This document shows positions 16,024-24,670 of a stretch of 64,000 nt of DNA, piece by piece. The translations under genes and the position numbers were made by a program. Source of the DNA: an uncultured Rhodospirillales bacterium (lineage in GTDB: Bacteria > Pseudomonadota > Alphaproteobacteria > Acetobacterales > Acetobacteraceae). Each line of letters begins with the position of its first letter. Position 1 is the first letter of the stretch. The stretch is taken from positions 1-64,000 of the forward strand of contig CAITOL010000041.1 in assembly GCA_903893975.1 (NCBI GenBank), in the 5' to 3' direction. The notes below the pieces were generated by a model. That model worked only from the letters and a program-made list of their open reading frames with translations. It made no database searches and was not told the origin of the DNA.

Positions 16024-18162
16024 ATGACAACCTTCCTCTCCTCGGTCTGGGACCGCGTCACCAACACCAGCACCTTCGGCAGCGCCCTGTCGAACGATCC
16101 GCTGACCATGCCGACCATTGCGGTCTCAACCACCGGTACGGAAGCGGTCAACACCTATGTCCGCTTCGTCAGCACCTCCGGCACTGTCGTCACCGTCAAC
16201 GCCAATCAATATTTCGCCGTCAACCAGTTCAGCTTCGACCCAACCCAATCCCTCAACATCGGGTCGCAGAGTACCGGCGCCGGCGCCGGCAAAGTCAGCC
16301 TCAACACCCTCAACCTCTCGCTCGGGGACGCCACCCTCAACCCCACGCTATTCAAGCAACTCGCCGCCGGAACCCTGTTCGGCGAAGTCGATCTGCTCAG
16401 CTACAGCCGGGCTGACGGCAAACTGATCAGTGATGACAGCTTCGGCCTCGTCGGCGGCACCGCACTCAGCATCGACAGCACCGGCGTGGTGCAATATTCC
16501 GCCCAATTCGGCGCCCTGGAACTGCAGCACAATTATCGTCAGTCCAACGGCACCCTCGCCGCCACGCCTGCGACGGCCTGGAACGCGATCACGAACACCT
16601 CCAGCTTCTCCACCACCGGGACTGCAAGCGCATCCCCGATGGCGGCCCCAACGCTGGCGCCAACAACCGGCCTGTCCAACGTCCAACCCGGCACCGTCGA
16701 TACCTATGTCCGGTTCCTGTCCTACCCGAGCGCAGGCGGCACCTACCTCACCGTTGCCGGCAACAGCCTCTTCGCCGTCAATCAGTTCAACTTCGGTGCC
16801 AACCAGATCCTCGCCCTCGGCACCACCGGTGCCGGCGCTGGCAAAGTCACCTTCTCCACCCTCAACCTCGCACTCGGGGACGCCTCCCTCAACCCAACCC
16901 TGTTCAAAGACCTCGCCAGCGGCATCGCCTTCCAGGAAGTTGATGTCCTCAGCTACAACCACGCCACCGGCGCATTGGTCAGCGCCAACAACTTCGGCCT
17001 CGTCGCCGGCTCGACCCTCTCCGTCGACAGCACCGGCATCGCCCAATATTCCGCCGAATACGGCGCGCTGAATATTTCGCAAGCGATCCCCTGCTTCCTC
17101 CGCGGCACACGCATCGCCACCCCGCGCGGAACCGTCGCGGTGGAACACCTGCGCGCGGGCGACCTCATCCAAACCTTGTCCGGTGCCACCCGCCCCATCC
17201 GCTGGATCGGCACCGGCCGCACCCTCGTCACCCCAGGCAATCGCTGCGACGTCTCCCCGGTCATCATCCGCCAGGGCGCACTTGCCGAGGCAATCCCCGC
17301 GCAGGACCTGCACGTCACCCGCCATCACGCCATGCTGATCGATGATGTGCTGATCCCCGCTGAACATCTCATCAACGGCACGTCGATCCTCTGGGATGAA
17401 ACCGGCCAAGTCATCGAATATTATCACATCGAATTAGACAGCCACGACATCCTGATCGCCAACGGCGCCCCCTCCGAAAGCTTCCGCGACGACGGTAACG
17501 CCAACCAGTTCCAAAACCTCGCCAGCCGCCCGGCGCGCGATTGGGAACCCCCGTGCCGGCCCGTGGTCGAAGCCGGTGCCGAATTGCACGCCGCCTGGCA
17601 GACAATCGCCGCCCGTGCCGGACGGTTGCCGCCCAACACCTTCACCGCTGATTCAGATCTGCACCTCCTGGTCGACGGCATCCGCATCGACGGCACCAGC
17701 CAGGATGGCGCGTGCTGGACCTTCCCCCTGCCCCCGAATCCCAGCAGCATCGCCATCGTCTCGAACACCTGCATCCCCGCCACGGACGCCCGCAGCAGCG
17801 ATCTGCGCCGCCTCGGCGTCGCCGTGCGGCAAATCTCGGTCTGGCGCTACAATGCCGGGCGCGCGGTGCCCATCCACACGCCCGCCCTATCGGATGGCTG
17901 GCATCAACCCGATGACGGGCATCGCTGGACCAAGGGGCGCGCGGTCCTGCCGACGCACGCTTTGCATCTTCCCGGCGGCGCGCGGCAGGTGGAAATCGAG
18001 ATCCTCCCGAAACTGACGTATCGCAAATTGCCCGCCAAGCCGCAGGCTCAGCCAAACGTCCCCAGCAAATCCTCCACCTGCGCCGGCGTCAGCAATCGCG
18101 GCGCGGCCCCGCGCAGCATCAGGAACAATTTCGCCGCCTCCTCCAACTCCTCGGCCGCATAA
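16024..18162 (+). CDS. Hint-domain protein with two Hcp-like N-terminal repeats
   Basis: The 712-residue protein has three parts. Residues about 1-175 and 180-352 are two copies of one domain; compare GAGAGKVSLNTLNLSLGD with GAGAGKVTFSTLNLALGD, and NPTLFKQLAAG with NPTLFKDLASG. These resemble the Hcp beta-barrel of type VI secretion tubes, whose pattern is GxGKVxF...SPxLF. A Hint domain follows at about 357-500, starting at Cys357 (CFLRGTRIATPRG) with the histidine block DLHVTRHHAMLI; such domains can self-cleave at the N-terminal Cys. The C-terminal 200 residues are a beta-rich module. No Sec signal peptide is seen. The last 38 or so residues run antisense into otnC and look like read-through sequence. 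Confidence 0.88.
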   Translation: MTTFLSSVWDRVTNTSTFGSALSNDPLTMPTIAVSTTGTEAVNTYVRFVSTSGTVVTVNANQYFAVNQFSFDPTQSLNIGSQSTGAGAGKVSLNTLNLSLGDATLNPTLFKQLAAGTLFGEVDLLSYSRADGKLISDDSFGLVGGTALSIDSTGVVQYSAQFGALELQHNYRQSNGTLAATPATAWNAITNTSSFSTTGTASASPMAAPTLAPTTGLSNVQPGTVDTYVRFLSYPSAGGTYLTVAGNSLFAVNQFNFGANQILALGTTGAGAGKVTFSTLNLALGDASLNPTLFKDLASGIAFQEVDVLSYNHATGALVSANNFGLVAGSTLSVDSTGIAQYSAEYGALNISQAIPCFLRGTRIATPRGTVAVEHLRAGDLIQTLSGATRPIRWIGTGRTLVTPGNRCDVSPVIIRQGALAEAIPAQDLHVTRHHAMLIDDVLIPAEHLINGTSILWDETGQVIEYYHIELDSHDILIANGAPSESFRDDGNANQFQNLASRPARDWEPPCRPVVEAGAELHAAWQTIAARAGRLPPNTFTADSDLHLLVDGIRIDGTSQDGACWTFPLPPNPSSIAIVSNTCIPATDARSSDLRRLGVAVRQISVWRYNAGRAVPIHTPALSDGWHQPDDGHRWTKGRAVLPTHALHLPGGARQVEIEILPKLTYRKLPAKPQAQPNVPSKSSTCAGVSNRGAAPRSIRNNFAASSNSSAA

Positions 18163-18680
18163 ACCGCATCCAGCAACGTCGCGCCGGACACCACCGGCCC
18201 ATGATTGGCCAGCAGCACCGCGCGCGCCGTCATGGCCGCCTGCTGGATCGCCGGCCCCATCGCCGGGTCGCCCGGCCGGTAATACGGCACCACCGGCATG
18301 CGCCGGCCCACCCGCATCACAAAATACGGCGTCAGCGGCGGGATCGGGTTTTCCGGGTCCACATCCGGCAAACACCCCACCGCGGTCGCGGCGCTGGAGT
18401 GCAGATGCACCACCGCCCCAGCCTCCGGGCGCGCGTCATAAAACGCCCGATGCATGAACACTTCCTTCGACGGCTTATCCCCCGCCACGTGCTGGAAATT
18501 CCGGTCGAGCTTGGAAATCTGCGCCGCCTCCAGCCGCCCCAACGACGAATTGGTCGGCGTCATCAAATACCCGTCGGCCACCTTCACGCTGATATTGCCC
18601 GCGCTGCCGACCGAAAATCCGCGCGCGAACAGGCTCGCCCCCAAGCTCACCAGCAATTCGCGCTGCGCGATCTCCGACAT
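18048..18680 (-). CDS. otnC: Class II aldolase, 3-oxo-tetronate 4-phosphate decarboxylase (OtnC-like)
   Basis: This 210-residue class II aldolase/adducin-type enzyme resembles OtnC, which decarboxylates 3-oxo-tetronate 4-phosphate to dihydroxyacetone phosphate. Visible features are SAGNISVKVADGYLMTPT near the N-terminus, the metal-binding VVHLHSSAATAVGCL and the later ANHGPVVSGATL. The start at 18680 follows the otnK stop closely (TGAGATG), so kinase and decarboxylase are coupled, as expected for consecutive steps. It is the last gene of a five-gene overlapping operon, and its 3' end overlaps the convergent Hint-domain gene by 115 bp. Confidence 0.88.
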   Translation of the reverse strand: MSEIAQRELLVSLGASLFARGFSVGSAGNISVKVADGYLMTPTNSSLGRLEAAQISKLDRNFQHVAGDKPSKEVFMHRAFYDARPEAGAVVHLHSSAATAVGCLPDVDPENPIPPLTPYFVMRVGRRMPVVPYYRPGDPAMGPAIQQAAMTARAVLLANHGPVVSGATLLDAVYAAEELEEAAKLFLMLRGAAPRLLTPAQVEDLLGTFG

Positions 18681-18681
18681 C

Positions 18682-19959
18682 TCAGCCCTCCAGCATGGCG
18701 AAGGCTTTGAGGAAGAAATCCGGCGCACCAAAATTGCCGGATTTCAGCGCCAATAGCAGCCCCGGCCCGGTCCCCTCGGCATAGGTCCAGGGCACGCCGG
18801 GATCGATCGCATCGCCAATGCGCAACTGCCGGATGCCCAATCGCTGCACCACCGCGCCGGAGGTCTCGCCACCGGCCACCACCAGTTTGCGCACCCCTCG
18901 CGCCACCAGCGCCTCGGCAATCGCCGCCATCGCCGCTTCCACCAACTCCCCGGCCGGGCCACGCCCCAATTTCGCCTGCAACGCCGCCACCTGCTCCGGC
19001 GGGGCGGAAGCCGCAATCAGCACCGGCGTCGCGCCCAACTTGCCCTCCATCCAGGCCAAAGCCTGTGCCGCCAGCGCCGCCGCATCCGGCGTGGCCAGCG
19101 GGTCGAGCTCTAACGTCGGGATATGCCCGCGCGCTTTGGCAATCTGGAACAACGTCGCCCGCGAGCACGACCCGGCGAGGATCGCCGCATGCCCCTCCAC
19201 ACTCGGCAACGCACTGGCATCGTCGCGCAGCGGCAACTTGCCCGCCTGGCGGAAATTCTCCGGCAACCCCATCGCAATGCCCGATCCGCCGGTAATCAGC
19301 GCGTGGCCAGACGCCGCCTCCCCAATCGCCAGCAGATCGTCGTTGGTGACAGCATCCACAATCGCGTATTGCCGCCCCTGTTCCTTCAGCCCGATCATCG
19401 CCTTGCGAATGGCCGCCGCCCCCTGCACCACCGTGGGGTAGGCCACCAGCCCAACCGTGCCAGTGCTCTGGCGCGACAGCACCCGCACCAGATTGGCATC
19501 CGTCATCGGCGTCAGCGGATGGTCCTGCATGCCGCTTTCATTCAGCAACTGCGCGCCAACGAACAAATGCCCCTGATACACGCTGCGCCCATTGGCCGGA
19601 AACGCCGGGCAGGCCAGCGCGAACCCACAGCCCAACGCCGCCGTCAGCGCATCCATCACCGGCCCGATATTGCCCTCGGGCGTGCTGTCAAAGGTGGAGC
19701 AGTATTTGAAGAAATATTGCTGGCAGCCCGCATCCTTCAGCCATTGCAGCGCCACCAGGCTCTCCGCCACCGCCTGCGCCACCGGCGCGGTGCGGGATTT
19801 CAGCGCCACAATCAGCACATCGGCATCCGGCACCGGATCATCCGGCCCCGGCACAAACACAATCTGCACCGCCCGCATGCCGTTCTGCACCAACATGGTG
19901 GCCAGATCGGTGGCGCCGGTGAAGTCGTCGGCAATACAGCCAAGCAGCGGCTTGCTCAT
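18682..19959 (-). CDS. otnK: Four-carbon acid sugar kinase, 3-oxo-tetronate kinase (OtnK-like)
   Basis: The 425-residue protein belongs to the DUF1537/four-carbon acid sugar kinase family. The N-terminal domain begins with LGCIADDFTGATDLA and has KYCSTFDSTPEGNIGPVMDA. The C-terminal nucleotide-binding domain has LVVAGGETSGAVVQRLG. OtnK phosphorylates 3-oxo-tetronate before OtnC decarboxylation, as established for related enzymes. The usual partners OtnI and DenD are not in the window. Its start overlaps the stop of the glycosyltransferase (ATGA). Confidence 0.93.
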   Translation of the reverse strand: MSKPLLGCIADDFTGATDLATMLVQNGMRAVQIVFVPGPDDPVPDADVLIVALKSRTAPVAQAVAESLVALQWLKDAGCQQYFFKYCSTFDSTPEGNIGPVMDALTAALGCGFALACPAFPANGRSVYQGHLFVGAQLLNESGMQDHPLTPMTDANLVRVLSRQSTGTVGLVAYPTVVQGAAAIRKAMIGLKEQGRQYAIVDAVTNDDLLAIGEAASGHALITGGSGIAMGLPENFRQAGKLPLRDDASALPSVEGHAAILAGSCSRATLFQIAKARGHIPTLELDPLATPDAAALAAQALAWMEGKLGATPVLIAASAPPEQVAALQAKLGRGPAGELVEAAMAAIAEALVARGVRKLVVAGGETSGAVVQRLGIRQLRIGDAIDPGVPWTYAEGTGPGLLLALKSGNFGAPDFFLKAFAMLEG

Positions 19960-20978
19960 AAGGTCTCCAGCGCGTTCGCAAATTCAGTCACTTGATGCGG
20001 CCAGTTCGGCAATGCCTGCCCGGCCTGCCAGGCCGCCTCGGCCACTTCCCGCCGCAGATCGGTATCGAAAATCAACCGGCGCAGCACTTTGGAATACGTC
20101 ACCACGTCATCCACCGCGGTCACGGACCCTGCCCCCTCCGGCACCACCGTCCCCGCGGCGCCGCCAGTGGTAATCGCCGCCGGAATCCCGCGCGCCAGTG
20201 CTTCGGCAATCGCCATGCCATAGCCCTCAAACCGCGTCGCCAGCGCGAACAAATCGGTTTTGCCCCATTGCGCCGCCAAAGCCGCACCCGCCAACACACC
20301 GGGGAAGCTCACCCGGTCGGCAATCTGCAACTCTGCCGCCAAATCGCGCAGCGCCGCCGCATCCGGGCCCTGCCCGGCCAGGGTCAAATGCCAGTCCAGG
20401 TCCCATAACCGGCTGAGCGCCCGCAACAGCATCCGGTGCCCCTTGCGCGGCTCCAGCGACCCCAGCGCCAAGATCTCGCATCCGGTGGTGGCAAACCGCG
20501 TGCGTGGCGCAGGCGCCGTGCCCGGCCGCACCACCGCCACCCGCGCCGCCGCAACCCCAAACCCGGCCAAGGCCCGCGCCGTCCAGTCAGAGGTGACGAT
20601 CACCTTGGCAAACGCCGGAAACAGCGCCCGCTCCTCCGCCACCAGCGCCGCGCGCGCCGCATCCGGCCAGTCCGGCTCTAGGGAAATCGGATGATGGATC
20701 AGCCCGATCGTCCGGCGCGCGGCAATCTCCGCCGCCAGCGGCGCAAACCCGCGCAACGCCAGCCCATCGATCACCGGCACGGTCTCCGCCGGCAACGCCG
20801 CCCAAGCGGCGCGCGCGGCCGCCGGCAGGTTGGGGTCGCCCAGCGCGTCCTCCGCGCCCAGTTCCACCACCGCCACCGTGTGTCCCAGCGCGCGCAACCC
20901 GTCGATCATCTCCCGATCATAGCCATAACCGCCCGAAACCGTCGCCAGAGCGCCCGGCAGCATAAAGGTCAGGTTCAT
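19956..20978 (-). CDS. Glycosyltransferase family 4 protein
   Basis: This 340-residue GT-B fold enzyme opens with MNLTFMLPGALATVSGGYGYDRE, which includes the glycine-rich acceptor-side loop. The C-terminal donor domain has ILALGSLEPRKGHRMLL and the EX7E motif region RFEGYGMAIAEALARGIP. Donor and acceptor are not evident. The start at 20978 follows the stop of the pterin-synthase-like gene by one base (TGACATG). The operon context, between a pterin-synthase homologue and sugar-acid enzymes, suggests transfer of a sugar to a small molecule rather than to surface polysaccharide, but this is inference. Confidence 0.9.
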   Translation of the reverse strand: MNLTFMLPGALATVSGGYGYDREMIDGLRALGHTVAVVELGAEDALGDPNLPAAARAAWAALPAETVPVIDGLALRGFAPLAAEIAARRTIGLIHHPISLEPDWPDAARAALVAEERALFPAFAKVIVTSDWTARALAGFGVAAARVAVVRPGTAPAPRTRFATTGCEILALGSLEPRKGHRMLLRALSRLWDLDWHLTLAGQGPDAAALRDLAAELQIADRVSFPGVLAGAALAAQWGKTDLFALATRFEGYGMAIAEALARGIPAAITTGGAAGTVVPEGAGSVTAVDDVVTYSKVLRRLIFDTDLRREVAEAAWQAGQALPNWPHQVTEFANALETL

Positions 20979-20979
20979 G

Positions 20980-21378
20980 TCAGATCGCCGCCTCATACGC
21001 CGCCCACGCCACCGGGCTTTCGCGCAGCAGCACCTTCAACCCGGTCACGCCCTGCCCGCCCGCGCCCAAACGCCCATCCTTCAGCGCCGCCGCCAGCAGG
21101 CCATGAATATGGCAGGCCATAAATTCAGTCGTGGTGTTCTGCCCCGCCAAGGCCGGCAGTGTGTCGAGGTTGTGGTAATCCACCGTATCCAGCAGCGCCC
21201 GCAGCACCGTCTTGGCCAGCCCGATATCGATCAGCAAATTCGCCGCATCCAGACGCGGCGCCCGAAACTCCGCCTCCACCGCGTAGGTCGCTCCGTGCAG
21301 GCGCTGCGCCGGGCCGAATTCCTCGCCGCGGAACGAATGCGCGATCATGATGTGGTCGCAAACCGTCAATCTGAACAT
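20980..21378 (-). CDS. 6-pyruvoyl/6-carboxytetrahydropterin synthase homologue with altered active site
   Basis: The 132-residue protein has the T-fold pattern of PTPS/QueD. MIAHSFRG (His14) corresponds to the first zinc ligand, RLHGATY (His28) to the second, VDYHNLD to the catalytic DH motif and LRES to the pterin-anchoring Glu. Several canonical residues are changed. The catalytic Cys before HGH is Ala24, the third zinc ligand (second His of HGH) is Ala30, and the DHH motif reads DYH. The usual cyclohydrolase-product chemistry is therefore unlikely without compensation. It overlaps the dehydrogenase gene by 13 nt and is followed at once by the glycosyltransferase. Confidence 0.85.
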   Translation of the reverse strand: MFRLTVCDHIMIAHSFRGEEFGPAQRLHGATYAVEAEFRAPRLDAANLLIDIGLAKTVLRALLDTVDYHNLDTLPALAGQNTTTEFMACHIHGLLAAALKDGRLGAGGQGVTGLKVLLRESPVAWAAYEAAI

Positions 21379-22322
21379 TCATCGTTTCCGTAGGTAATCA
21401 CCGCACATAGACCACGCCCATCAGCCAGCAACCCCGGCATCGCCGCCGGCAGATCGGCAAAGCGTGTCGGCGACGCCAGCAGCGCGTCATAGCGCGCATC
21501 TTCCAGCAATCTGAGCGCAATGGCCAGACGCTGCCCATGCGTCACCCGCCCGCGCATAGCAGGCGATACAAGGCCAACCTGGGACGCGATCAACCGCAGC
21601 CGCCGCGCATGAAACGCCTCCCCCAACGGCACCCCCGGCGCCTGGTCGCCATACCAACTCGCTTCGATAATCCGTGCCTCATCGCCGGCACGGTCTAACG
21701 CCAGCCGCAATCCCGCCTCAGTGGCGGAAGCATGCACCACCAGGTCCTGCGCGCCGGGCGCCGCCGCCGGCGATGCAAAGCGGCAGCCGAACGCCGCCGC
21801 CCGCGCGGCGCGGCTGGGGTCGATATCCACCACCGTGACCTCCGTGCCGGGAATCCGTGCCAACAGCGAGGCCGTCAGCATGCCCACCACCCCGGCACCG
21901 ATTACCAACACCCGCTCGCCGGGCAGGCAGGCCGCATCCCAACTGATATTCAGTGCCGTTTCCATATTGGCTGCCAGCACCGCACGCGGCGTCGGTACCG
22001 CATCCGGCACCGCAATGCACATCGCCGCTGGCGCTAGAAACCGGTCCTGATGCGGATGCAGCACGAACACCCGCGCGCCATCGTCACGCCGCCCCACGGC
22101 GGCATAGCCATATTTCACCGGAAACGGGAACGCCCCCCCCATCAGCGGCGCCCGCATGGCCTCGTATTGGCTTGGCGGTACCCGCCCGGCAAACACCAGC
22201 GCCTCAGTCCCGCGCGAAATCCCGCTGGCCAGCGTCGTCACCAGCACGCCGTCACCCGCCAGCGTCTCCGCCAGCAACGCGCCCTGCCCGGCGCCGACCG
22301 TCCAAAACGCCCGCACCTGCAT
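21366..22322 (-). CDS. Zinc-type alcohol dehydrogenase-like protein (MDR family)
   Basis: This 318-residue medium-chain dehydrogenase begins with MQVRAFWTVGAGQGAL and has SGISRGTEALVFAGRVP near residue 40. Its NAD(P)-binding Rossmann motif is RVLVIGAGVVGMLTASLLA. The catalytic Cys-His-Glu zinc site of classical alcohol dehydrogenases is not obvious (SGISRGTE replaces SGICGTD), so zinc binding is doubtful. The frame is open to 22409, but family similarity starts at 22322. It is the first gene of the five-gene overlapping operon with the pterin-synthase homologue, glycosyltransferase, otnK and otnC. Confidence 0.88.
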   Translation of the reverse strand: MQVRAFWTVGAGQGALLAETLAGDGVLVTTLASGISRGTEALVFAGRVPPSQYEAMRAPLMGGAFPFPVKYGYAAVGRRDDGARVFVLHPHQDRFLAPAAMCIAVPDAVPTPRAVLAANMETALNISWDAACLPGERVLVIGAGVVGMLTASLLARIPGTEVTVVDIDPSRAARAAAFGCRFASPAAAPGAQDLVVHASATEAGLRLALDRAGDEARIIEASWYGDQAPGVPLGEAFHARRLRLIASQVGLVSPAMRGRVTHGQRLAIALRLLEDARYDALLASPTRFADLPAAMPGLLADGRGLCAVITYGNDECSD

Positions 22323-22439
22323 CAGCGACGCCGACAAGCTGCTGCGCGTCGATCCGCTGGCCGGCACTATGATTTCAGATGCGACGCTGACGTCGGACGG
22401 CAATGCCATGAATTTGTCCCCGCGACGGACCGTGCCGCA

Positions 22440-22962
22440 ATGGCGGATGGTACGACATATTCATCGGTCGATGAAGCGTCCGTCGGTGTACGTTTTTACA
22501 CCGCGGACCGGTCGCCCGGTGTGGCGACCGTGCAAGCCGCCGACACCGCAGCGGAGACCGAAACGCCCAGTTTTCTGCTAGGTTATTCCGACCTGGCAGC
22601 CAATTGCGGTACTACATCCCGCTTACTGTTCGCCCAAGATCGAAACAGGCAGGACGACATATCCACCTACCCCACTGCCGGGTTTCACCAGAACCGAAGT
22701 CGCGTCCAACGGCTTCGATTTTATCAACGCCTTCAGCTTTGACCTGGCATCGCTACCAAGCGCGGCGGTGCTGGAGCCAGCAACGCTTGGCGTGCTGGGC
22801 CTCGGCTTCACCTACCTGTTTGGCCCGCTGCGGCGGCGTGACAAACTGCGACGGCTGCGAACAATCCCGATCGCGCCCAACCCAAGGGCCAGCTTCCCAA
22901 GCGGCACCGGCTCTGGTACCGCCGTGGTTTGGGAATTGGAGACGGAAAGATTATCCAGATAG
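22440..22962 (+). pseudogene. Remnant of a PEP-CTERM protein gene
   Basis: From 22582 one frame reads through GFTRTEVASNGFDFINAFSF and ends in a typical PEP-CTERM sorting signal, LEPATLGVLGLGFTYLFG followed by PLRRRDK (about 22768-22845). It has no signal peptide or start of its own. An adjacent frame from ATG 22440 (MADGTTYSSVDEASVGVRFY) also looks protein-like and stops at 22742, so a frameshift near 22620-22690 may have split one gene. The N-terminal part is missing. The 3' end overlaps the convergent intact PEP-CTERM gene. This accounts for most of the 402-bp gap after the dehydrogenase gene. Confidence 0.5.
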
Positions 22963-23624
22963 CCAAACTGGCCACCCGCGGACCCACCCGCGAAGACCGA
23001 AAGATTATTCGCGCCGGCAAAATAATTCTGACTTTGAGAGGCGGTGACAATGCTGGAATAATTCGCGCTGACGCCCGAGATCAGGATATTGCTGAGCGCG
23101 CCGGTACCAACGTTCACGTCATAGCTCAGGGCATAGAATGTGTTCGCCGCGATTCCCGAAAGCGAAATCGTCGCTTCGTTGATACCGAAATGTTCGAGCT
23201 GCAGATTTCCATCGGGCGCCAGCCGCAACCCCGTGAAGAAATTCCACTGGCCCGCGGCGATCGTCGAAAAGCCCAACCCGACGCCACGGTTTGGTGTGCT
23301 GGAGGTGCCAGCCAGATTGCCCAGCGAAATATCGGCGGAAAGATGCAGCGAACCTGTGAAATAGCCACCGAGTGGCGCATTAAGGGCCACGTCAGCACCG
23401 AATTGTAATTGGTTACCCAGGGCTTGCGTGGTCCAGGCGGGTTGCGAGGAGCTGAAATTGCCCCCCGGAAGGTTAGCGACATCCGGCGTCGCGCCATCCA
23501 TATTGGTTCCGTTGGTCCGGTTAAAATTCTCCGCGACGATCATCGTGGCGGCGGCTTGCGGTGCCATTGCACAAGGAAGCGCGGCGACAATCAGGGCGGC
23601 GTAAAGTCGGGCAGCGGCGCGCAT
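22812..23624 (-). CDS. PEP-CTERM sorting domain-containing secreted protein
   Basis: The 270-residue protein has a clear Sec signal peptide (ARLYAALIVAALPCAMAPQAAA). A beta-rich body of about 200 residues resembles a concanavalin/LamG-like domain (FNRTNGTNMDGATPD at its start). The C-terminal tail is AVPEPVPLGKLALGLGAIGI followed by a basic cluster. This tail is the PEP-CTERM signal, recognised and cut by exosortase (EpsH/XrtA type) in organisms that make exopolysaccharide. No exosortase gene is in the window. The body has no catalytic motif that I recognise. Its neighbour on the opposite strand is a decayed gene of the same class. Confidence 0.87.
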   Translation of the reverse strand: MRAAARLYAALIVAALPCAMAPQAAATMIVAENFNRTNGTNMDGATPDVANLPGGNFSSSQPAWTTQALGNQLQFGADVALNAPLGGYFTGSLHLSADISLGNLAGTSSTPNRGVGLGFSTIAAGQWNFFTGLRLAPDGNLQLEHFGINEATISLSGIAANTFYALSYDVNVGTGALSNILISGVSANYSSIVTASQSQNYFAGANNLSVFAGGSAGGQFGYLDNLSVSNSQTTAVPEPVPLGKLALGLGAIGIVRSRRSLSRRRSGPNR

Positions 23625-23875
23625 CGGGTATCCTTGAACTGGTGACGATCACACCATCTTTGCAATTATCGGACCAGTATCAAATTTATTTTTATTTTGA
23701 AAATTAAATCAATTTTCTCAAAGTCATATAAATTTGGCAATAAATTTTCCAGATTTCAATTAAGTCGGTTTGTAAATTATCCTGACACCCTGCATCCCTC
23801 CGTGCCGCCAAGCACTGCCGACGCCGATACCTCCCGCCGCAACGAACACGATCCCCAACACCTAAGCGCTATCGC
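23625..23875. other. AT-rich intergenic region upstream of the PEP-CTERM gene
   Basis: About 23640-23780 is strongly AT-rich, unlike its surroundings, and contains the inverted repeat GAAAATT-N5-AATTTTC (23699-23717). It probably holds the promoter and regulator sites of the minus-strand PEP-CTERM gene. A 74-codon plus-strand ORF here has no supporting feature. Confidence 0.35.
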
Positions 23876-24670
23876 TCACCCCAAAGGAATGTCCAGCAGC
23901 ACATCCGCGCCCAGCCGGTAGACCGACCATTCCAGCCGCCGGCCCTGCTGCGGATCATCCACGCCCGGCAGGGTAAACGCCGGTATCCCCGCCCCCAGCA
24001 GCAGCGGCGCGATGGTCACATGCAACCGGTCCAACAACCCGGCCGCCAGAAACCGAGACACGGTAATGCCCCCGCCTTCGACAAAAATCCGCTTCAGCCC
24101 GCGCGCCGCCAGCCGCTCGATCACCACGGCCAGATCCAACCCGCTCCCCGGTGAGCGCGGAATGCGCAGCAGGCTGGCGCTGCCAATCCGTTCCGGCCCT
24201 GCCGCATCCTCGGCGCACAACAACAAGGTCGGCAACCCGTCATGAAACAGCCGATGCGTCGGGGCGAGCCGGCGATTGGTGTCAATCACCACCCGCACCG
24301 GCGACGGGCCAGGGCAGAGCCGCGTGGTCAGCAGCGGGTCATCCGCTTGCACCGTCGCCGCCCCAACGACCACCGCGTCAGATAGCGCACGCAACCGATG
24401 GGTATGAAGAATATCCTCTGGCCCACTGATCCAAAAAGATTTTCCGCTAGCAGTCGCAATCCGACCGTCTAGCGACTGCGCCATCCGCCCCAGCACGAAG
24501 GCGCCATCAACCGCCGCTGCCTGGGCCAACAAACGCGCATACGGGCACCCTTCCGCATGCCCATCCGGGACGCGCGTCAGCAGGCGCGACCACGCAGCCT
24601 CATCACGCACCAGGCGCGGCGGCCCGGCATCGGCGGCGGGTTCGGAAAGGTCTGGGCGGGCGATTAGCAT
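23876..24670 (-). CDS. RibD C-terminal-like reductase (dihydrofolate reductase fold)
   Basis: The 264-residue protein matches the reductase half of RibD. After an unrelated N-terminal 55 residues it has GRMAQSLDGRIATASGKSFW, a DAVVVGAATVQADDPLLTTR block and the C-terminal RIFVEGGGITVSRFLAAGLL. These are NADPH- and pyrimidine/pterin-binding elements. The deaminase domain of true RibD (His-Ala-Glu and PCxxC) is absent, so this is not a complete riboflavin enzyme. The reductase fold acts on pyrimidine or pterin substrates, which makes a link to the nearby pterin-synthase-like operon attractive. It also lies 15 bp after flgN and may share the flagellar transcript. Confidence 0.85.
   Translation of the reverse strand: MLIARPDLSEPAADAGPPRLVRDEAAWSRLLTRVPDGHAEGCPYARLLAQAAAVDGAFVLGRMAQSLDGRIATASGKSFWISGPEDILHTHRLRALSDAVVVGAATVQADDPLLTTRLCPGPSPVRVVIDTNRRLAPTHRLFHDGLPTLLLCAEDAAGPERIGSASLLRIPRSPGSGLDLAVVIERLAARGLKRIFVEGGGITVSRFLAAGLLDRLHVTIAPLLLGAGIPAFTLPGVDDPQQGRRLEWSVYRLGADVLLDIPLG

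Follow-up and report, generated by a model that had tools for sequence, protein, structure and literature searches.

An Acetobacteraceae version of the uncharacterised PTPS-IV gene cluster, with OtnK and OtnC as a probable family-specific attachment

The window analysed here, 64,000 nucleotides forming part of contig C41 of an uncultured Rhodospirillales bacterium of the family Acetobacteraceae, carries an operon built around a gene of the PTPS-IV subfamily of 6-pyruvoyltetrahydropterin synthase (PTPS) homologues. This operon is the Acetobacteraceae version of a real, conserved and uncharacterised pathway that occurs in several phyla. The genome (4.2 Mb, 202 contigs, 96.2% complete) has metagenome-assembled genomes of the Acetobacteraceae/Rhodospirillales as its close relatives. 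From its upstream end, the operon reads as follows.

23876–24670, minus strand: stand-alone RibD_C pyrimidine reductase, a core gene overlooked in the original prediction (PF01872, E=6e-42)
22323–23875, no strand assigned: insertion of about 1.55 kb that splits RibD_C from the dehydrogenase, not present in the relatives examined
21366–22322, minus strand: zinc-less MDR dehydrogenase (BchC-like), core gene, intact open reading frame (NCBIfam bchC, E=4e-10, far below the cut-off)
20980–21378, minus strand: PTPS-IV with FGPAQ signature, a catalytically non-canonical T-fold protein, core gene (PF01242, E=2e-21)
19956–20996, minus strand: GT4 glycosyltransferase, E-x7-E motif intact by motif alignment (PF00534, E=1.5e-21)
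18682–19959, minus strand: OtnK, 3-oxo-tetronate kinase, probable family-specific attachment (NF043035, 612.6 bits against a cut-off of 350; SBD_N/NBD_C, motifs intact)
18048–18680, minus strand: OtnC, 3-oxo-tetronate 4-phosphate decarboxylase, probable family-specific attachment (NF043034, 293.3 bits against a cut-off of 250; Aldolase_II)

The original prediction, made from the sequence alone, had described the last five genes as an overlapping operon, and this layout was borne out: five intact minus-strand reading frames fill 18048–22322, with overlaps of 13 bp (dehydrogenase/PTPS-IV), 17 bp (PTPS-IV/GT4) and 4 bp (GT4/OtnK, as ATGA). The probable ATG start of OtnC lies at 18680, a single base past the OtnK stop, and its open reading frame reaches back to a TTG at 18731. 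The RibD_C gene also belongs to the operon; its stop typically overlaps the dehydrogenase start by 1–4 bp in relatives, including the nearest locus (L143), where the PTPS is 88% identical to that of the window. The insertion that separates the two genes holds a PEP-CTERM-like reading frame (22812–23624, minus strand, weak PEP-CTERM matches) and a plus-strand relic with a second PEP-CTERM-like tail (around 22720–22830). As pairwise dN/dS values against L143 are 0.05–0.15 for RibD_C, dehydrogenase, PTPS, glycosyltransferase and OtnK, these genes are under purifying selection.

The cluster is widespread. Of the 200 genomes sampled from the order, 69 have a full-length PTPS-IV ortholog, as do 45 of 385 from the class, and a scan of genome contigs returned at least 577 relatives, among them proteins from Halomonas, Thauera, Gemmatimonadales, Actinomadura and Streptomyces. 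Neighbours were counted by homology within 8–9 kb of the PTPS gene (shorter where a contig ends) at 41 loci of the window's family, 40 other alphaproteobacterial loci and 35 loci mostly of other phyla. Dehydrogenase and glycosyltransferase accompany PTPS-IV almost everywhere (39 loci each within the family, 39 each in the other Alphaproteobacteria, 35 and 34 in the third set), as do, somewhat less regularly, RibD_C (39, 32 and 24) and a methyltransferase (34, 35 and 33). GTP cyclohydrolase II (GCH2) was found at 15 of the other alphaproteobacterial loci and at 17 of the third set, where a CDP-alcohol phosphatidyltransferase (29), a creatininase-family protein (18) and an LPG_synthase_TM protein (12) are further neighbours. 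The set RibD_C, dehydrogenase, PTPS-IV, GT4 and methyltransferase is present in Alpha-, Beta- and Gammaproteobacteria, Actinobacteria and Gemmatimonadota, so that the recurring dehydrogenase-PTPS-glycosyltransferase trio that the original prediction mentioned for other Alphaproteobacteria was confirmed by neighbourhood analysis and reaches far beyond that class. The proximity of GCH2 (PF00925) and RibD_C (PF01872) to PTPS-IV was reported independently in 2017 (PMC5445326). The locus of the window shares the FGPAQ signature and this type of neighbourhood with the PTPS-IV subfamily and SCO6650 of Streptomyces coelicolor, but differs in that OtnK and OtnC lie in the operon, GCH2 is on a separate contig (C155), RibD_C has been split off by the insertion and the assembly is without the methyltransferase.

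PTPS-IV is a subfamily of COG0720 (AGeNNT cluster-node 62) marked by the FGPAQ signature (PMC5445326). In an alignment of 32 sequences, F21, G22, P23 and A24 are invariant and Q25 is conserved to at least 90%. The closest solved relative, SCO6650 (PDB 3d7j), is an ortholog (56% identity, E=6e-61), and the predicted model superimposes on it with a TM value of 0.97 and on PTPS/QueD structures with 0.7–0.8, which confirms the T-fold. Across 81 sequences the pattern is AHSF..FGPAQ.lHGAT..[YF]xNLD..TTTE..E120. The positions of the catalytic Cys and of the third zinc His are occupied by Ala in all, or all but one or two, of the sequences, and x-[Y/F]-x-NLD replaces the catalytic Asp-His pair where DHxNL is expected; the canonical Cx3-5HGH zinc motif with the catalytic Cys was not found in PTPS-IV. 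Retained are the pterin-anchoring Glu (E120, invariant), the TTTE motif and two His. Because the catalytic Cys, the zinc His and the Asp-His pair have been lost, standard PTPS/QueD chemistry is, judged from the residues, unlikely. What had been called a pterin-type synthase is therefore such a protein by family and fold, but not by PTPS chemistry. The authors of the 3d7j structure reportedly found neither zinc nor PTPS activity in SCO6650.

A role in queuosine (QueD), biopterin or folate precursor synthesis by canonical PTPS-type chemistry would be in keeping with PF01242 membership and the T-fold, but we regard it as extremely improbable and have rejected it on the active-site residues. In addition, the window protein scores only 40 bits with the QueD model (cut-off 89), and the genome has two further PTPS-family genes, one of which carries a C-x3-HGH motif.

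The dehydrogenase, which adjoins PTPS-IV in nearly all loci, is not the typical alcohol dehydrogenase that the earlier label "ADH-like" suggested but a zinc-less, BchC-like MDR protein, with SRGTE...KYGY in place of the zinc-ligand motifs, conserved across 156 aligned sequences. The RibD_C protein (264 aa) consists of PF01872 alone and is without a deaminase domain; its best solved relative is a 2,5-diamino-6-ribosylamino-4(3H)-pyrimidinone 5'-phosphate reductase (6p8c, E=4e-33). The methyltransferase, which is S-adenosylmethionine-dependent, normally follows the glycosyltransferase, as it does at 34 of the 41 loci of the family and at 35 of the 40 from other Alphaproteobacteria. It was not found in the window's genome as sequenced by a profile search in which a relative possessing the gene scored 1e-111, and relocation of the gene elsewhere in this genome was rejected on the same result. 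Several close relatives also miss it at the locus.

Since the core recurs across phyla, often with GCH2, a creatininase-family protein and a CDP-alcohol phosphatidyltransferase, the product is probably a molecule of the pyrimidine/pterin type that is made from GTP, reduced and glycosylated, and in most cases also methylated. The glycosylated pterin-like product proposed in the original prediction is still the best reading, the trio being accompanied by RibD_C and often by GCH2. We infer the following order of steps. GCH2 (on contig C155) would open GTP to 2,5-diamino-6-ribosylamino-pyrimidinone phosphate, in actinobacteria probably via a formylated intermediate that the creatininase-family protein of the cluster would deformylate. 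The stand-alone RibD_C would then reduce the ribosyl to a ribityl group in archaeal style, with no earlier deamination. PTPS-IV may hold the 2-amino-4-oxo-pyrimidine or pterin ring through the conserved Glu and Thr-Glu and, together with the zinc-less dehydrogenase, would form a pterin-like heterocycle by non-PTPS chemistry. Finally, GT4 would attach a sugar, and in most relatives, though not in the window's genome, the methyltransferase would methylate the product. As a deaminase is not among the recurring genes of the cluster loci, the product probably retains the 2-amino group; lumazine synthase and FO synthase are not recurring neighbours either.

The variant first step is suggested by five actinobacterial cluster GCH2 proteins (L200, L209, L211, L214 and L221), which have His or Met at the position of Tyr105 of Escherichia coli RibA; the proteobacterial cluster proteins retain Tyr. 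In SCO6655, this change is reported to halt the reaction at the formylated product. A bacterial creatininase-family enzyme able to deformylate the GCH2 intermediate has been described, the formamidase BrbF (PMC9478397). Together with BrbF, the early archaeal riboflavin/F420 pathway (ArfB and a stand-alone RibD_C) is the nearest parallel in chemistry, leading from GTP to the formyl- or diamino-ribosylamino-pyrimidinone phosphate with deformylation by the creatininase family and reduction by RibD_C. In contrast to that pathway, PTPS-IV, dehydrogenase, glycosyltransferase and methyltransferase come next in the cluster, in place of any recurring deaminase, lumazine synthase or FO synthase. A glycosyltransferase alongside pterin-type biosynthesis is also known from the Chlorobium PGT (PMC5683033) and from cyanobacterial pterin glycosides; a difference is that PGT acts on tetrahydrobiopterin.

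A function of PTPS-IV in coenzyme F420 synthesis has been mentioned as unpublished (PMC5041015), and an FO synthase of the FbiC type is present in the window's genome, in the genomes G154 and G062 and in both of the actinobacteria tested. Nevertheless, no FO synthase match over the cut-off was found in 8 of 13 cluster-bearing genomes (G178, G184, G144, G036, Halomonas, Thauera, Gemmatimonadales and Lamprocystis), and we consider this function very improbable and have rejected it as the general one. The FO synthase gene of the window's genome lies on contig C53 (L325) and suggests F420 synthesis there; among relatives it is patchily distributed.

OtnK and OtnC present a different picture. Both exceed the equivalog cut-offs and have intact motifs, as in tetronate catabolism, but differ from an erythronate/threonate catabolic operon in their position behind the glycosyltransferase of a pterin-type operon and in that no OtnI, LtnD or DenD gene lies beside them; the sole close OtnI-like gene of the genome adjoins a tartronate-semialdehyde-reductase-like gene. 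Their position is not a peculiarity of one genome, as 53 of the 69 PTPS-IV genomes of the order have OtnK no more than 8 kb away from PTPS-IV. It is, however, confined to the family: neither gene was found near the core at any of the 40 other alphaproteobacterial or the 35 mostly other-phylum loci. Even within the order OtnK occurs only elsewhere in 15 of the 69 genomes, and GT4-OtnK(-OtnC) persists without PTPS-IV, dehydrogenase and RibD_C at eight loci (L296, L300, L302, L305, L312, L313, L314 and L315). Where OtnC is missing from Roseomonas-type loci, OtnK is often stripped of its conserved motifs while the core is still there. The decayed motif in such OtnC-less frames is ADDFTGATD or GGETSG (L113, L114, L118, L125, L157, L159, L166 and L175), and these OtnK proteins are, by their residues, possibly non-catalytic.

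Because the pair is absent outside the family, occurs unlinked or without the core, and shows decay of OtnK where OtnC is lost, it is probably an attached tetronate-catabolism pair, a later family-specific addition rather than an essential step. It would convert 3-oxo-tetronate via the 4-phosphate to dihydroxyacetone phosphate and CO2, having joined the operon within the family, and would be dispensable for the core. The claim that all five genes very likely serve one pathway is not supported by these findings, and the suggested trimming of a side chain by OtnK and OtnC found no direct support. A single pathway, in which the pair handles a four-carbon unit that the pterin-like molecule either gives off or receives, would be in keeping with the tight gene overlaps, the lack of OtnI, LtnD and DenD genes beside the pair, the linkage in 53 genomes and the presence of OtnK anywhere in 68 of the 69 PTPS-IV genomes against 21 of 131 without PTPS-IV (counts uncorrected for phylogeny). 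Set against the 75 core loci outside the family that all do without the pair, and against the unlinked, core-less and decayed cases within it, we consider it unlikely.

The eight core-less loci bear on another possibility, namely that two modules are joined only by transcription, RibD_C-dehydrogenase-PTPS-IV being pterin-like and GT-OtnK-OtnC acting on a sugar or sugar acid, with the glycosyltransferase mainly serving OtnK and OtnC. In G062 the break in the operon falls precisely between the two. But the glycosyltransferase adjoins PTPS-IV without OtnK in nearly all other-phylum core loci, and the orphan glycosyltransferases mostly nest among the cluster glycosyltransferases of the family, so that most of them go back to loci that lost the core at a later stage. 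Such a division is quite improbable.

We therefore lean, with moderate confidence, towards the proposal as a whole: the PTPS-IV cluster encodes a route from GTP to a glycosylated pterin-like molecule, to which OtnK and OtnC are attached as a separate catabolic pair. Several points weigh against it. We know of no metabolite or enzyme activity for the cluster. The cluster creatininases best match MftE, below the NCBIfam cut-off, and their match to ArfB is weak. RibD_C might use a deaminated substrate. The strong co-occurrence of OtnK and PTPS-IV could reflect a functional link, and as several lineages that lost PTPS-IV have kept glycosyltransferase and OtnK, the glycosyltransferase may have another role. 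Finally, the cluster RibD_C is the sole RibD_C of the window's assembly, in which neither the bifunctional RibD nor RibBA was found. In relatives, RibD and RibBA are adjacent to each other; as the absence of RibD here goes together with an apparently missing RibBA, the lack of this block is probably an assembly gap and would otherwise be unusual. Moreover, the bifunctional RibD is separate from the cluster RibD_C in the relatives tested, so that the latter is not the housekeeping enzyme there. On these grounds RibD_C as the only riboflavin reductase was rejected.

More speculatively, and rather doubtfully, the cluster might make a new redox cofactor or signal, a glycosylated and usually methylated 2-amino-pteridine of the N8-ribityl type, with tetronate metabolism wired in by the Acetobacteraceae. 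In many phyla a coupling to a membrane lipid is conceivable, given the nearby genes for a CDP-alcohol phosphatidyltransferase and a flippase-like LPG_synthase_TM protein.

A gene running towards the end of the operon from the other side (16024–18162, plus strand) encodes a protein of 712 aa that contains a Hint_2 domain (PF13403) and weakly matches Hcp-like proteins; it is preceded upstream by one for a DUF429-like protein (PF04250; 14926–15849, plus strand).

In the open literature on SCO6650/SCO6655, on a creatininase-PTPS-GCH2 cluster and on pterin glycosides, no description of the product of the PTPS-IV cluster was found. To the extent of our search, four findings are new: the extended core, the attachment of OtnK/OtnC in this one family together with its decay, the methyltransferase loss in the window's genome and the split of its operon. 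PTPS-IV genes match models named 6-carboxytetrahydropterin or 6-pyruvoyltetrahydropterin synthase despite having lost that active site, and caution is advised in assigning genes of the cluster to queuosine, biopterin or F420. PTPS-IV is carried by hundreds of genomes of several phyla, and the loci sampled represent one conserved cluster. With its core defined (RibD_C, dehydrogenase, PTPS-IV, GT4 and methyltransferase, often with GCH2, a creatininase-family protein and a CDP-alcohol phosphatidyltransferase), and with OtnK and OtnC probably set apart as a later attachment, this orphan pathway becomes directly testable.

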